From: Cyanobium sp. M30B3
Lineage (GTDB): Bacteria > Cyanobacteriota > Cyanobacteriia > PCC-6307 > Cyanobiaceae
Direction: 5' to 3'
Length of the DNA: 64,000 bases
Assembly (NCBI GenBank): GCA_018399015.1
Contig: CP073761.1
Coordinates: 496,001 to 560,000, forward strand
Shown here: piece after piece, positions 16,624 through 51,725 of the stretch
Layout of the letters: each line of letters opens with the position of its first letter
How positions within the stretch are numbered: the stretch's first letter is position 1
Position numbers and translations under genes: made by a program
Notes under the pieces: model-generated
What the model saw: only the letters and a program-made list of their open reading frames with translations
What the model was told of the DNA's origin: nothing
Database searches by the model: none

Positions 16624-17988
16624 TCAGGCCCTGTGTCCCTGCCGTGCCAGGGCCATGCCGAACAGCAGCGACGCCAGGGTGAGCCCCAGGGCCAGGACGG
16701 TCCACAGCGGCAGGCCCATTCCCTTGAGGGCGATCGGTGCGAAGGCCGTGACCAGGCCGCCGCCGAGAAAGGGTTCGAACACCAGTTGCTTGAACGAAAA
16801 GGCCTCCAGGGCGCCGCTGCGGCCGTAGGGGTCGGCCATGCGCAGCAGCAGCAGGCCGCTGGCCGTCACCCCCGTGCCCTGGCCGAAGTCGGCGATCGCC
16901 CGCTCGAACCAGGTGTCGGCGAACAGGCGGGGCGCCAGCCAGAGGAAGGCGGCCAGGTTCCAGGCCAGCCCCACCACCGCCAGCACCACCAGTGGCAGCC
17001 AGGCCTCTGCCAGCAGGCTGAGGTTGAGGCTGGCCATGGCCGCCGTGATCAGCAGGTCCATCGCCAGCGAGCCGATGCTCTGCTGCTGCTGCACCGCGGC
17101 CAGCTGGGGCTGCCCCTGCCACTGGAGCAGCTGCTGTACCAGCAGTCCGCCCACCATCGCCAGCGGGAACAGGGGCACCGCCTCCAGCAGGCGGGCCGCT
17201 CCCTCGCCGCCCAGCCAGCCGGCCAGCAGCACCAGGGCGTGCTTGAGCAGCACCCCCAGGCCCACGGCTCCGCCGATCAGGGCCAGGTTGAGGGTGAGCG
17301 AGTCGAGCTTGGGGGACGGCTGGGCCGGACGCTGCCTCCGCTCTTCCGACTCCTCCAGCCGCCGGGCTTCCAGGGCCGCCATGGCATCCGGATCCCCGGC
17401 AGCCAGCAGCCATTGCCGGCGTCGGCCGATCACCACCAGGCTGCTGCCGATCAGCACCGCCGCCAGCACCCCCAGCGTGGCCATCGCCAGGCCCAGCGCC
17501 TCGCCGCTGGCCAGCCCCAGGCTGCGGAAGGTGGGGCCCATGCCCGCCGCCGTGCCGTGGCCGCCCTCAAAGCCCACCTCGATCAGGCAGGCCATCAGCG
17601 GATTCACCCCCAGCAGGGGTTGGAGCACCAGCCCCACCACCAGGCCGCCCACGAGGTACTGGCCGAAGCCCAGCACCATGCCGAAGGCGGTCTGGCTGGC
17701 GGCTCGCTGCCAGATCACGGAGCGGCTGGGCAGGGCCTGGCCGAGAAACAGGGTGGCGAACACCACATTGATGAGCGCCCCGGGGATCTGGTTCCAGATC
17801 GTGTACACCTGCTCCGGAAAGATGCGCAGCGGGCTGAACGGGCCGATCAACAGCCCCAGGGCGCCGGCGATCAGGGCCTCGGGCAAACCCAGCCTGCGCA
17901 ACCAGCCCACCCGGTTGCGCAGGCTGGCGGCCAGCAGCAGCAGCAGGCTGAGGGCCACGAAGGCGATCAGCACGTCAAACACCTTCAT
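16624..17988 (-). CDS. gltS: GltS-type sodium/glutamate symporter, copy A
   Basis: GltS carriers import glutamate with sodium. The 454-residue protein has an inverted pair of five-helix bundles. Conserved motifs are GFGQYLVGG, NPLMACLIEVGFEGGHGTA in the first half, and ADFGQGTGVTASGLLLLRMADP in the second. These are the pore-loop hairpins of the family. A hydrophilic cytoplasmic loop separates the halves (about residues 205-235). A related copy lies 21 bp upstream on the same strand, so this is a tandem duplication. Substrate specificity of either copy cannot be told from sequence. Confidence 0.88.
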   Translation of the reverse strand: MKVFDVLIAFVALSLLLLLAASLRNRVGWLRRLGLPEALIAGALGLLIGPFSPLRIFPEQVYTIWNQIPGALINVVFATLFLGQALPSRSVIWQRAASQTAFGMVLGFGQYLVGGLVVGLVLQPLLGVNPLMACLIEVGFEGGHGTAAGMGPTFRSLGLASGEALGLAMATLGVLAAVLIGSSLVVIGRRRQWLLAAGDPDAMAALEARRLEESEERRQRPAQPSPKLDSLTLNLALIGGAVGLGVLLKHALVLLAGWLGGEGAARLLEAVPLFPLAMVGGLLVQQLLQWQGQPQLAAVQQQQSIGSLAMDLLITAAMASLNLSLLAEAWLPLVVLAVVGLAWNLAAFLWLAPRLFADTWFERAIADFGQGTGVTASGLLLLRMADPYGRSGALEAFSFKQLVFEPFLGGGLVTAFAPIALKGMGLPLWTVLALGLTLASLLFGMALARQGHRA

Positions 17989-48763: not shown

Positions 48764-49998
48764 TCAGAGCACCCGCCACCAGGGCGCCGCCAGCACATCG
48801 GCCGTGAGCCATTCCACGCTCGTGCCGGTGTGCAGCAGCAGGCCCGCCCGTGCCTGGCTGCCGTATTCGGCGCGGAAGGTGCGCAAATGGGCGCAGTCCG
48901 CCAGCCTTGGCGATGCCGTGGCCTTGACTTCGATCGGCAGCAGCCTGCCCCCCGCCTCAATCACCACATCCACCTCCTCGCCGAGGGTTGTGCGCCAATA
49001 GCCCAGTTCGGCTCGCTCGACGCGGGCGTCGCGCCACGCCAGCAGATCGTTCAGCACCAGATTTTCGAGATGGCAGCCTTGCGGTTCCGCTCCGGCCAGG
49101 TGCAGGGCGATGGCGGTGTCGCCCCAGTAGAGCTTGGGGGACTTGATCAGTCGCTTGGTGCGGTTTACGGCATAGGCCGGCAGGCGCACGAGCTGGTAGG
49201 AGGTCTCCAGCAGATTGAGCCAGCGGCGCACCGTGGGTTGCGGCAGCGCCACGTCGCGCCCCAGTTCGGTCTGGTTGACCAGCTGCCCCAGGCGCAGGCA
49301 GGCCGCCTGCATCAGCCGACGGAAATCCGGCAGGGAGCTGATCGTCGCCAGGTCCTGCAGGTCGCGCTCGAGATAGGTGCGCACGTAGCCGTCGAACCAG
49401 ATGGCGCGCTCGGCAGGGTTGCTCAGCTCGATCGCTGGCGTGGGAAACCGCCCCGCTGAGCCAGCGCGCGCCAGTCTTCCCTGTGACCGTCCCCGGCGGC
49501 GAGCAGGTCGCGCCAGCCTTGATCGGGCGTGTTGAGCAGCGCCTCCCAGCGACCGGCGCTGCCCAGGCCGCGTTGCTCACGGCGGGTGAGCGGCCAGAGG
49601 GTGAGATAACTCGCCCTGCCGGCGAGCGATTCACTCACCTGCCGCATCAGCAGCAGGTTTGCCGAACCGGTGAGCAGGAAGCGACCCGCTCTGCGGTTCC
49701 GATCGATGGCCCGCTTCACGGCGCTGAGCAGGGAGGGTTCCCGCTGCACCGCGTCGAGCGTGATCGGCGCGTTGCCTCCCACCAGTGCCTCGGGATCGCG
49801 CCTGGCGGCAGCGAGCACGTCGAAGTCATCCAGGGTGCGGTAGCTCCTTTCGCCCGCAACCAGTTGCTCGGCCAGGGTGCTTTTACCTGTTTGCCGCGCG
49901 CCCGTCACAACCACCGCCGGCATCACCGCCAGCCGATCGGCGAGGGCACCGCTGACCAGTCGGGGCAGGGATTCACCACGTGGATGATTTTCATTCAC
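48764..49998 (-). pseudogene. AAA-14/DUF4143 family ATPase, split by a one-base deletion
   Basis: The family is a P-loop ATPase plus a DUF4143/nuclease-like domain, with an unclear role, common in mobile or accessory regions. The first part (49423-49998) has Walker A TGARQTGKST and LLTGSANLLLMRQV; it stops after GGFPRQRSS. The second part (48764-49384) begins RTYLERDLQDLATISSLPDF and ends with WLTADVLAAPWW, with the nuclease-like EVDVVIEAGGRLLPIEVKA. Adding one base in the run of three G at 49442-49444 joins them through TPAIELSNPAERAIWFDGYV into one about 412-residue protein. The GTG start lies inside a perfect 13-bp inverted repeat. It is either a decayed gene or a sequence error. Confidence 0.85.
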
Positions 49999-50008
49999 GT
50001 GGTGAATC
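49970..50008. promoter_or_regulatory. Perfect 13-bp inverted repeat over the ATPase start codon
   Basis: Left arm 49970-49982 (GATTCACCACGTG) and right arm 49996-50008 (CACGTGGTGAATC) are exact complements, with a 13-nt spacer. The GTG start of the ATPase (49996-49998) is in the right arm and the left arm lies in its first codons. It may be an operator for autoregulation, or an RNA hairpin hiding the start. Confidence 0.7.
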
Positions 50009-50019
50009 GTAAGCTGCGC

Positions 50020-50727
50020 TCACACCGAACGGCCGCAGAGCACCAGGAAGCCGGCGAGGTAGGCCAGGGCGATCAGCAGGGTGCGCAGGCTGTTGCGCAC
50101 CAGCTCGAAGCGCAGCTGATCGGCCCGTTTCCGCACCGTCACACCCGCCTGCTGCTGCTGGTTCTGGATCTGGTCGAGCAGGGCCTTGCGCTGGGCCTGG
50201 GGATCGCTGAGCTCGGGGGCGGCGGCCCGATTCTCCAACTGCCACTGCTGTTGGATCTGGCCCGCCGGCGCCCGGCGGATCAGCTGTTCGGCCTGGCTGA
50301 GGCGCTGGCTGAGCTGGGATGAGCGGGCACTGGCCTCACGGTCGAGGTCGTTGACGCTCACCAGGAACAGGGGAATCTGGCCGATGGCCAGCACGGCCAG
50401 ACCGATTACCCCCAGGCGGGCCAGCCCCAGCGCCTGGTCGCGGCGACGCGCCCAGCGCAGGGCCTCCCGCCGGCCGGCTGCGAGGTCGGGCTCCGGTTCC
50501 AGCAGGGTGGCGAAGCGCAGCGGGGCGACGCCCACAAACCCCAGGGAGGCGGCATCGATGATGCGGCTGGAGAGCTGGGCGGCCCAGGCGCTGGAGCGGA
50601 AGCTGAAGGGCAGCGCGGCTGAAATCACGAGCAGGGCGAACACCACCACCAGGGTGAGGCCGGTGGCTCTGGCCAGCAGGGGCAGCCTGGGGTGCAGCAG
50701 GTGGATCTGCGGGGATGGGGCGGGCAT
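50020..50727 (-). CDS. HpsJ-like membrane protein
   Basis: The 235-residue protein has four hydrophobic segments: near residues 20-45 (GLTLVVVFALLVISAALPF), about 65-75, about 112-130 (LGVIGLAVLAIGQIPLFLV) and a C-terminal pair region (LRTLLIALAYLAGFLVL). A periplasmic/cytoplasmic Gln-rich helical loop (about residues 135-205; SQLSQRLSQAEQLIRR, ALLDQIQNQQQQAGV) separates them. This layout matches HpsJ, associated with polysaccharide secretion in cyanobacteria. The start at ATG 50725-50727 is preferred. It lies downstream of the PEP-CTERM-like gene and its terminator. Confidence 0.6.
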   Translation of the reverse strand: MPAPSPQIHLLHPRLPLLARATGLTLVVVFALLVISAALPFSFRSSAWAAQLSSRIIDAASLGFVGVAPLRFATLLEPEPDLAAGRREALRWARRRDQALGLARLGVIGLAVLAIGQIPLFLVSVNDLDREASARSSQLSQRLSQAEQLIRRAPAGQIQQQWQLENRAAAPELSDPQAQRKALLDQIQNQQQQAGVTVRKRADQLRFELVRNSLRTLLIALAYLAGFLVLCGRSV

Positions 50728-50765
50728 GGGGGCTGGCCTGGGGCTGCTGGCTGGGGAGGGTGAAC

Positions 50766-50793
50766 ACAAAAAAGCCCTGCCAGGGGCAGGGCT
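50766..50793 (-). terminator. Rho-independent terminator of the PEP-CTERM-like gene
   Basis: On the minus strand a perfect 9-bp stem (AGCCCTGCC / GGCAGGGCT) with a 3-nt loop is followed by six T. It lies 22 bp after the stop of the gene at 50815-51483. Confidence 0.85.
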
Positions 50794-50814: not shown

Positions 50815-51483
50815 TTACAGCTGATCGCTGCTTCCGGAAGCAGAGCTCACAGACCCAGTAGCCAGGTTGATGCGGCGACGCAGGCGGCGGCTGTAGCCGA
50901 AGGCTGCACCCACCCCGAGCAGGGGCAGCGGACCAGGAACGGGGGCTGAGAAGTTGCTGATCGTGGCGATGCCAGGGCCGAGTTGGTTGTCAGTAGCGAA
51001 AACCCTGAAACCGAAGGTATCGCCGCTCAGGACGTTGAACTGACTGAAGCCAGTGCCCTGGGAGTTGTTGACGGCAAGTTGGGTAAAAGTGCCATTCAAG
51101 AGATAGCCGAAGCCATCATATACCTCTTCATCGCTTGAAGAATAAGACCAGTCAAAGCTGACCGGGCCGGAGGCAGCCGCCGCTATGGTGTAGTCGGTAT
51201 TGACATTGACAAAGAATATTGCATTGCCTTCATCATCGAAAAGTATTTCTCCGTTGTCGCTCCCAGTTATTGTGATGGCAGCAGGGGCTGCCGAGATGTC
51301 CACACTGCCATCGCCCAGGGCTGGATCCGAAGTGAAGGTCCAGTTGGCTGGGGCATAGACGCCCGCAAAATCCTGCTGAAGCTGCACGGCATGGGCAGGG
51401 GAGGCCAAGGTTGCAGCGCTGGCGATGCCAAGGGCAATGGAGCTCAGAGCCCTTGCCTTGGGAGGGAGTGCAAGTGAAAGCAT
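50815..51483 (-). CDS. Exported protein with PEP-CTERM-like sorting tail
   Basis: The 222-residue protein has a signal peptide (MLSLALPPKARALSSIALGI; cleavage near ASPAHA), a beta-rich Asp/Ser/Gly-rich mature region (residues 33-185) without recognised catalytic motif, then the tail VPGPLPLLGVGAAFGYSRRLRRR like that of the trypsin-like protease at 10956. Unlike that protein it has 17 residues after the Arg cluster (INLATGSVSSASGSSDQL). Codon use is less GC-rich than in neighbours. A TAAAAT -10-like box lies at 51528-51533. Terminated by a strong hairpin. Confidence 0.75.
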   Translation of the reverse strand: MLSLALPPKARALSSIALGIASAATLASPAHAVQLQQDFAGVYAPANWTFTSDPALGDGSVDISAAPAAITITGSDNGEILFDDEGNAIFFVNVNTDYTIAAAASGPVSFDWSYSSSDEEVYDGFGYLLNGTFTQLAVNNSQGTGFSQFNVLSGDTFGFRVFATDNQLGPGIATISNFSAPVPGPLPLLGVGAAFGYSRRLRRRINLATGSVSSASGSSDQL

Positions 51484-51725
51484 GATGAAAGAAAGGCGGG
51501 GTATGTAGAAATACGTAGCGCCTAATAATTTTACCCAGCTTACTTGTCGAGCTTGATTTTGAACCCTCTGCCAAGGGGGGGGTGACGGTTTCTCGATTGG
51601 CACGAGTGCAGGTGCCGGCTGGGCCTGGGCGTGGCCACTGGAGGTTCAAGCAAGGCTGTCAGGATGGCCTCACCTCACCCCTTGTGTGCCGCCACCGCCA
51701 CCGGGCTGTGGGACCCATCGATGCC

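Follow-up and report, generated by a model that had tools for sequence, protein, structure and literature searches.

A PDC-S01 gene and the inverted repeat at its start

The window, by which we mean the whole stretch of 64,000 nucleotides analyzed from Cyanobium sp. M30B3, carries on its minus strand a gene that, judged from its sequence, is an AAA_14-DUF4143 ATPase of the candidate defense family PDC-S01, apparently broken here by a one-base frameshift. An inverted repeat spans its start. The features of the locus are the following.

48764..49384, minus strand: DUF4143 half of the gene, in a different frame from the ATPase half (PF13635, E 5e-37); a base is missing near 49440 relative to the intact gene L033
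48923..48982, minus strand: PD-(D/E)xK-like nuclease motif GEEVD...IEVK, by our own reading; its residues match E335, D337, E350, and K352 of L033
49181..49321, minus strand: predicted winged-helix region, approximate, placed where the HTH lies in L029 and putatively transferred to the window
49423..49998, minus strand: AAA_14 ATPase half of the predicted PDC-S01 gene, 191 aa, Walker A GARQTGKS (PF13173, E 2.9e-23)
49970..50008, minus strand: 39-bp inverted repeat (13-bp arms plus spacer), operator-like
49971..49985, minus strand: palindrome 2, 15 bp, ATCCAC-GTG-GTGAAT, with one mismatch, inside the coding start; its center lies 22 bp from that of palindrome 1
49993..50007, minus strand: palindrome 1, 15 bp, ATTCAC-CAC-GTGAAT, which holds the GTG start (from the sequence and pattern scoring)
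49996..49998, minus strand: GTG start codon, the sole ATG, GTG, or TTG in frame from the upstream stop (-117 of Walker A) to -24
50020..50769, minus strand: co-directional upstream ORF with no Pfam match; its end lies 21 nt 5' of the GTG
50815..51603, minus strand: ORF without a Pfam match for 50815-51480

On the plus strand, positions 49970 to 50008 read GATTCACCACGTG-GATGATTTTCATT-CACGTGGTGAATC. The two 13-nt arms (49970-49982 and 49996-50008) are perfect complements around a 13-nt spacer, as the first-pass annotation had described, and the start GTG does lie inside one of them, as it had also claimed: on the minus strand (49998-49996), it sits in the right-hand arm, which is the promoter-side one. 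If one mismatched pair is allowed, the arms grow to 18 nt (94%) and leave a center of 3 nt. The repeat begins 11 nt past the stop codon of the upstream co-directional ORF. In its minus-strand form, the 37-mer at 49971-50007 reads ATTCACCACGTGAAT-GAAAATC-ATCCACGTGGTGAAT and resolves into two tandem 15-bp palindromes of the type ATTCAC-N3-GTGAAT with centers 22 bp apart, a description that fits the element better than one long repeat does. The 37-mer is single copy in the 3.18-Mb genome in a search that allowed up to 3 mismatches. A promoter scan found none, and an Rfam search returned nothing at E≤1.

The same annotation had called so long a perfect repeat unlikely by chance, which for the repeat taken by itself is overstated. 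We counted perfect inverted repeats whose arms were 13 nt or longer and lay no more than 30 nt apart. The window has two separate places of this kind, the present repeat and one at 17889; 100 first-order Markov sequences of window length held a mean of 0.31 such repeats, and 19 of the 100 carried at least one. Taken alone, the repeat is not very improbable; its position at a gene start and its conservation lift it above chance.

The relative L033 (90% identical to the window in the ATPase half and 92% in the DUF4143 half) has a single open frame of 410 codons. In an alignment with it, the window is without one base near 49440, and the DUF4143 domain, which is present in the window, is out of frame with the ATPase there but in frame in L033. 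The alignment holds two one-base gaps, one of them after the right arm. We considered the latter as a second frameshift of the window and rejected it: L159 and the Thermus genes share the window's leader frame, so the gap was ascribed to L033, and one window frameshift remains. When the relatives were scanned with the PADLOC PDC-S01 profiles, L033 matched at E 6.8e-112, and all 64 of the 64 sampled members matched.

A winged helix lies within the DUF4143 part of the Thermus relative L029, where HTH_IclR scores 24.5 bits and HTH_5 23.1 (cut-off of 22 for each). In the 64-member sample at E≤0.05, we found HTH_IclR in 8 members, HTH_11 in 6, and HTH_5 in 5, among the 25 of 58 families listed. The corresponding part of the window is out of frame with the ATPase half. 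Residues E335, D337, E350, and K352 (L033 numbering) are invariant across the 64 aligned members, and we read them as a PD-(D/E)xK motif, in agreement with the description of PDC-S01 in the accessible part of PMC12988326. Solved structures gave no match to the L033 protein at E≤1, and a search with the family profile matched the ATPase part only, among the best 60 of 81 matches. NCBIfam had no match for the protein. An AlphaFold model of the window's DUF4143 half from the single sequence had a mean pLDDT of 35.6 and was uninformative. Peptide-pattern scans of viral contigs, which are sensitive to close relatives only, confirmed no relatives of the ATPase.

The site in the closest relatives

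Four relatives, L033, L029, L062, and L159, have the two-palindrome layout of the window at the gene start, within unrelated flanks. They are also the four closest proteins by BLAST score in our own locus set, for each half taken separately. In the order given, identity to the window is 90, 51, 49, and 45% in the ATPase half and 92, 57, 56, and 49% in the DUF4143 half. L029 and L062 are Thermus plasmid genes with about 50% protein identity to the window, and the Thermus palindrome first came up in an unbiased repeat scan. The pattern ATTCA-N5-TGAATGA-N3-TCATTCA-N5-TGAAT has 24 fixed bases and was drawn from these same five loci; over 195 upstream regions, it scored 24 in L159, 23 in the window, 22 in L033, and 20 in both L029 and L062, with the next locus at 16, and the best score among equally many coding stretches was 18. 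Identity across the 37-bp site is 0.57 to 0.78, against 0.16 to 0.43 in the adjoining upstream 37 bp (all pairs but that of the two Thermus strains). In the shuffle test described below, the inverted repeat of L029 has a p of 0.03 and L033 fails at p 0.01; both are supported by the shared layout.

Leader peptides run over the site, and that of the window (MNENHPRGES) resembles that of L159 (MNDNHSRDES). L033 retains the site DNA though its leader and its main ORF are in different frames. In Thermus, the annotated start falls in the last half-site, past the center. Because of these two observations, the constraint on the site looks like one at the level of DNA rather than of a leader peptide.

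The first-pass annotation tied its reading to the presence of the repeat in close relatives and before homologous ATPase genes. The outcome is mixed. L033 matches 22 of the 24 defining bases and lacks the perfect arms, and a search of 300 genomes of the window's family for the exact arms was positive in a single one, that of the window; the layout recurs in the four relatives. As far as these alignments tell, the exact arms are not the conserved feature; the layout is.

Two other searches gave matches that we set aside. An exact-string search hit the contig L002, from an Acidobacteria metagenome-assembled genome, where the same arms form an unrelated-looking repeat within a coding region; some genes on this contig look mycobacterial to us. 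A pattern search of phage contigs gave three matches, of which L060 looks coding and L059 and L061 were set apart as other boxes, which we take to be Fur boxes.

Phased repeats across the family

We gathered 197 AAA_14-DUF4143 loci from the window's phylum, the phylum of G645 (the genome of L002), and plasmids, with the Walker A glycine of each as its anchor; most candidate starts lay 50 to 100 nt upstream of this glycine. Removal of L017 and L126, which lack a Walker A, left 195 loci; 193 had 230 nt of upstream sequence, and 174 were non-redundant once near-duplicates were out. L001, L004, L007, L008, L020, L023, L026 to L028, and L119 to L124 were excluded as re-fetches of the same genes; L002 and L059 to L061 were excluded as non-family loci; and L025 was excluded for an ATPase match in a 1079-aa frame without a DUF4143 match there. 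In one collection, at most 8 candidates were scored per genome, and it comprised its loci plus 48 stretches; the second comprised 30 listed loci plus 60 stretches picked by place, short of every match.

Repeats were sought in a 130-nt stretch across the start region (-190 to -60 of Walker A), as direct repeats at 22, 23, 32, or 33 bp or as inverted repeats, with a shuffle-based p≤0.01. We found a repeat before the start in 94 of the 174 members (62 direct and 48 inverted, some with both) and none at this threshold in the other 80. The same test was positive in 4 of 174 of the genes' own coding sequences, in 10 of 167 stretches farther upstream, and in 12 of 203 other gene starts, which were mechanically picked ORFs, wrong-strand ones included. 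By source, significant loci numbered 37 of 76 in the phylum of the window, 50 of 87 in that of G645, and 7 of 11 on plasmids. Among Fic genes, 24 of the 30 fetched loci were usable; direct repeats were significant near the start in none and inverted repeats in 5. Inverted repeats alone are therefore not unique to the PDC-S01 family. Those of the 5 Fic genes (among L238 to L267) are possibly the Fic genes' own operators.

A test with fixed scores gave a like result. Among the 174 loci, 31 had a direct repeat at 22/23 bp (score of at least 8), 14 one at 32/33 bp, and 37 an inverted repeat (score of at least 10), for 70 with any; the corresponding numbers among 202 other gene starts, drawn from five of the genomes (400 kb), were 3, 2, and 3. 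Exact 7-mer repeats also cluster at certain distances: 22 bp (17 loci), 23 (34), 32 (15), 33 (9), 44 (8), and 46 (19). Smaller excesses stand at 21 bp (7 loci; coding control, 3) and 69 bp (7; control, 2), and most other distances have 0 to 5. The direct-repeat spacings of 22/23 and 32/33 bp, periods noticed on the very loci then tested, correspond to two or three helical turns. With the genome groups taken apart, the peaks at 23, 32, and 46 bp appear in both, those at 22 and 33 bp mainly in the G645 group, and 22/23 bp also on plasmids. Some loci, such as L036, L156, L205, and L208, carry arrays of three or four copies.

Enrichment is limited to the stretch between roughly -250 and -60 of Walker A. 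The window's repeat covers the start codon itself, as the first-pass annotation noted, but this does not generalize: with starts guessed mechanically, the repeat overlaps the start in 8 of the 48 loci with inverted repeats and in 4 of the 61 with direct repeats. About half of the sampled PDC-S01 genes have a conserved, helically phased, repeated DNA element at the start, and the window is one example. What we found is a symmetric or repeated site at the promoter or start that is kept against its flanks, as in an operator.

The repeat sequences are unlike between most genes, paralogues included. Of the four DUF4143 genes in the genome of the window, L005 has no significant inverted repeat; the other three (the window's, L003, and L006) have one, each with its own sequence. 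In G787, which has 23 matches, 7 of 14 sampled paralogues are significant, and the units differ where printed. We compared units with proteins for 76 of the 94 loci with units (protein of >300 aa), in 2,285 pairs. A unit score of at least 9 was reached by 9 of 18 pairs with 0.6 to 0.8 identity in the winged-helix region and by 6 of 8 pairs above 0.8, against 0 to 1.5% in the lower bands. Binning by ATPase-domain identity gives much the same sharing (42% of 26 pairs and 50% of 4 pairs). Unit similarity had a Spearman correlation with identity of 0.025 in the HTH (p 0.23), a very weak one of 0.048 in the ATPase, and a weak one of 0.098 in the C-terminal part, and over the 2,285 pairs we found no special tie of unit sequence to the HTH. 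Unit sharing thus appears confined to close proteins (>60% identity), and common descent may account for it.

One further layout joins seven loci, chosen by motif from ten printed: ACTCA-N6-TGAGT occurs twice, 22 bp apart, with a site identity of 0.60 to 0.88 against 0.14 to 0.38 in the flanks. Its distance to the gene varies, from -145 to -106 of Walker A. Five of the seven were compared as proteins (L201 and L190 were left out) and have an HTH identity of 0.69 to 0.90 in the pairs shown.

DUF4143 matches number 23 in G787 and 14 in G700, a strong expansion of the family. In the genome of the window, frameshifts split three of the four DUF4143 ATPase genes, the window's between the domains and those of L003 and L006 inside the ATPase domain; each of the three retains its significant inverted repeat near the start. 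These splits may stem from gene decay, from errors in the assembly, or from programmed frameshifting. On a Thermus parvatiensis plasmid, a like gene (L032, 1495-2708) is annotated as two overlapping ORFs, one for the ATPase and one for DUF4143, and is another split copy.

A proposed self-bound operator and its alternatives

The palindrome in the window looks like a real DNA control site. We think it probable that the repeat is a cis-acting DNA operator of the PDC-S01 gene and that, most likely, the winged helix of the gene's own product binds it for autorepression. The two 15-bp palindromes, with centers two helical turns (22 bp) apart, would form the operator; the winged helix inside the DUF4143 part of the product would bind there, as two dimers side by side; binding would block the start of transcription or translation; and ATP, or a phage or DNA signal, would relieve the repression. 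Because phased direct repeats make no RNA hairpins, the site would be contacted as DNA, along one face over two or three whole turns. We infer that the ATPase is the binder, that its binding represses, and that a signal of this kind lifts the repression. The argument for self-binding is that a binder would be expected to move with its gene and to vary among genes, that, transposases aside, no neighboring gene recurs in the 12 annotated loci of the 13 on plasmids, and that the ATPase has a winged helix; the argument for autorepression is that the site lies over the promoter, ribosome-site, and start region. In the window, where the site covers the start codon 11 nt past the upstream stop, either a roadblock or a block of translation is conceivable. 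The operator reading of the first-pass annotation, which hinted at the ATPase as a possible binder, is well supported by the layout in one close relative and three distant loci and by the repeats in about half of the family; the binder would be the ATPase. The window's own control loop may be dead or partial, since a frame break separates the ATPase half from the DUF4143 half, and this copy is possibly a relic.

The first-pass annotation had also offered an RNA hairpin that hides the GTG start, and for the window gene alone, a stable hairpin is a real rival as a means of translational control. It is physically possible: the 81-nt stretch around the start folds at -34.3 kcal/mol (z of -5.15 against shuffles) with the repeat as the main stem, and since the upstream ORF stops 21 nt from the start, an operon transcript may include the site. 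Mismatches in the arms across the family lean slightly the same way, with 27 of the G-U type against 14 A-C and 61 others (p of about 0.06 by our own estimate), a lean too small to carry the RNA reading. The hairpin fails for the 62 of 174 relatives with direct repeats, which do not fold so; an internal palindrome, sought in units of at least 14 nt, was found in 15 of the 62 direct-repeat units. The spacing tracks helical turns of DNA, Rfam gave no match, and a stable stem over the start was not found across the relatives that share the trait, given the direct-repeat members and the 8 of 48 inverted repeats that overlap a guessed start. On balance, we regard the hairpin as unlikely. We give the same low weight to a separate regulator encoded elsewhere that would bind the repeats, as RptR does before a defense island. 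Such repressors of defense genes that bind promoter repeats exist (PMC12255303), the window protein's own winged helix is out of frame, and small regulators of differing kinds lie near four plasmid members (L063, L065, L066, and L069). Against a separate regulator, the window's site is single copy in its genome, units differ among paralogues of one genome, layouts move with close proteins through differing flanks, and no neighbor gene other than transposases recurs in the 12 annotated loci of the 13 on plasmids.

AAA proteins occur in transposition systems, and the family is patchy, resides partly on plasmids, and has transposases near several plasmid members, all of which would suit a mobile element that carries the gene and has the repeats as its ends or its target sites. 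We rejected terminal repeats of this kind: a second copy at the other end, scored as a unit match of at least 10 within 300 nt past the stop, was found in 0 of 40 testable loci (of 94 with units). Spacing and conservation also fit binding sites instead, which leaves the mobile element exceedingly improbable. A chance palindrome in a decaying gene would agree with the frameshift and with the 19 of 100 random sequences that hold a comparable repeat; given a layout kept in four relatives (two from Thermus, one at 45 to 49% identity) and the family-wide enrichment, we hold it to be very improbable. The self-bound operator is the reading we prefer. A broader version of it is possible, and we advance it tentatively: PDC-S01 may be a self-contained sensor, repressor, and effector, in which the ATPase, winged helix, and nuclease would form a cooperative array on a gene-specific operator phased by whole helical turns, hold their own gene silent, and be released to attack by ATP state or foreign DNA; fast diversification of operators would avoid cross-regulation among the many paralogues of a genome.

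Similar arrangements occur in other systems. Plasmid iterons, which lie upstream of an initiator gene and are bound by its product, are helically phased direct repeats about 22 bp in length; the genes here are ATPase-nuclease genes, mostly off plasmids in our sample, and the inverted forms (48 of 174) are nearly as common as the direct ones (62 of 174). Type II toxin-antitoxin operators are palindromic, lie over the promoter or start, and are bound by an operon product, whereas here there is a single gene, and the DNA-binding module would lie within the ATPase-nuclease. The nearest regulatory parallel, as far as the accessible part of its description goes, appears to be RptR, which represses a restriction-modification/DarTG2 island and binds direct repeats 58 to 31 bp upstream of the start (PMC12255303). 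Both cases involve the control of defense genes and several direct repeats, and each RptR repeat contains a small palindrome (PMC12255303). RptR differs in that it is a small protein of its own, whose 9-bp repeats share one conserved site, TAGCTA (PMC12255303); here, the likely binder is the effector ATPase, the spacing is 22/23 or 32/33 bp, and the sequence is mostly gene specific.

PDC-S01 is reported as the fourth most common defense family in prokaryotes, most candidates of this kind still awaiting validation, and as an ATPase fused to a PD-(D/E)xK-type domain (PMC12988326); it is the most frequent individual locus in the rumen set of PMC13356809. The match of all 64 scanned members to its profiles and the shared ATPase and PD-(D/E)xK fusion place our AAA_14-DUF4143 genes with it, but the accessible part of its description has no operator, winged-helix autoregulation, or start-proximal repeats (PMC12988326). 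We found no report of start-proximal repeats or autoregulation in the PDC-S01/DUF4143 family in the literature searched, which lay mostly outside subscription journals and preprints. For a family this abundant, the phased, mostly gene-specific repeats in about half of the sampled genes give a concrete hypothesis of control, namely, self-binding through the winged helix. The repeats could also be used directly as DNA ligands in biochemical work and as natural reporters of the activating signal.

Thermus HB27, which has a DUF4143 gene on pTT27, offers a laboratory system for this gene type. In the accessible part of PMC4406477, TT_P0211 (AAA_14, DUF4143, and HTH motifs) is up 6.6-fold in HB27 with a plasmid, and no such change is given for the strain without Argonaute. 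We found three DUF4143 matches on pTT27, at 76.6, 144.2, and 210.0 kb; the 210-kb one is L062, which, by gene number and position, is probably TT_P0211.

Upstream of the repeat in the window, a terminator-like hairpin with a T tail (50793-50773, minus strand) follows the ORF at 50815-51603 and lies just upstream of the ORF at 50020-50769. The C-terminal part of the 50815-51603 ORF contains what we take to be a PEP-CTERM-like sorting signal (PGPLPLLGVGAAFGYSRRLRRRI).
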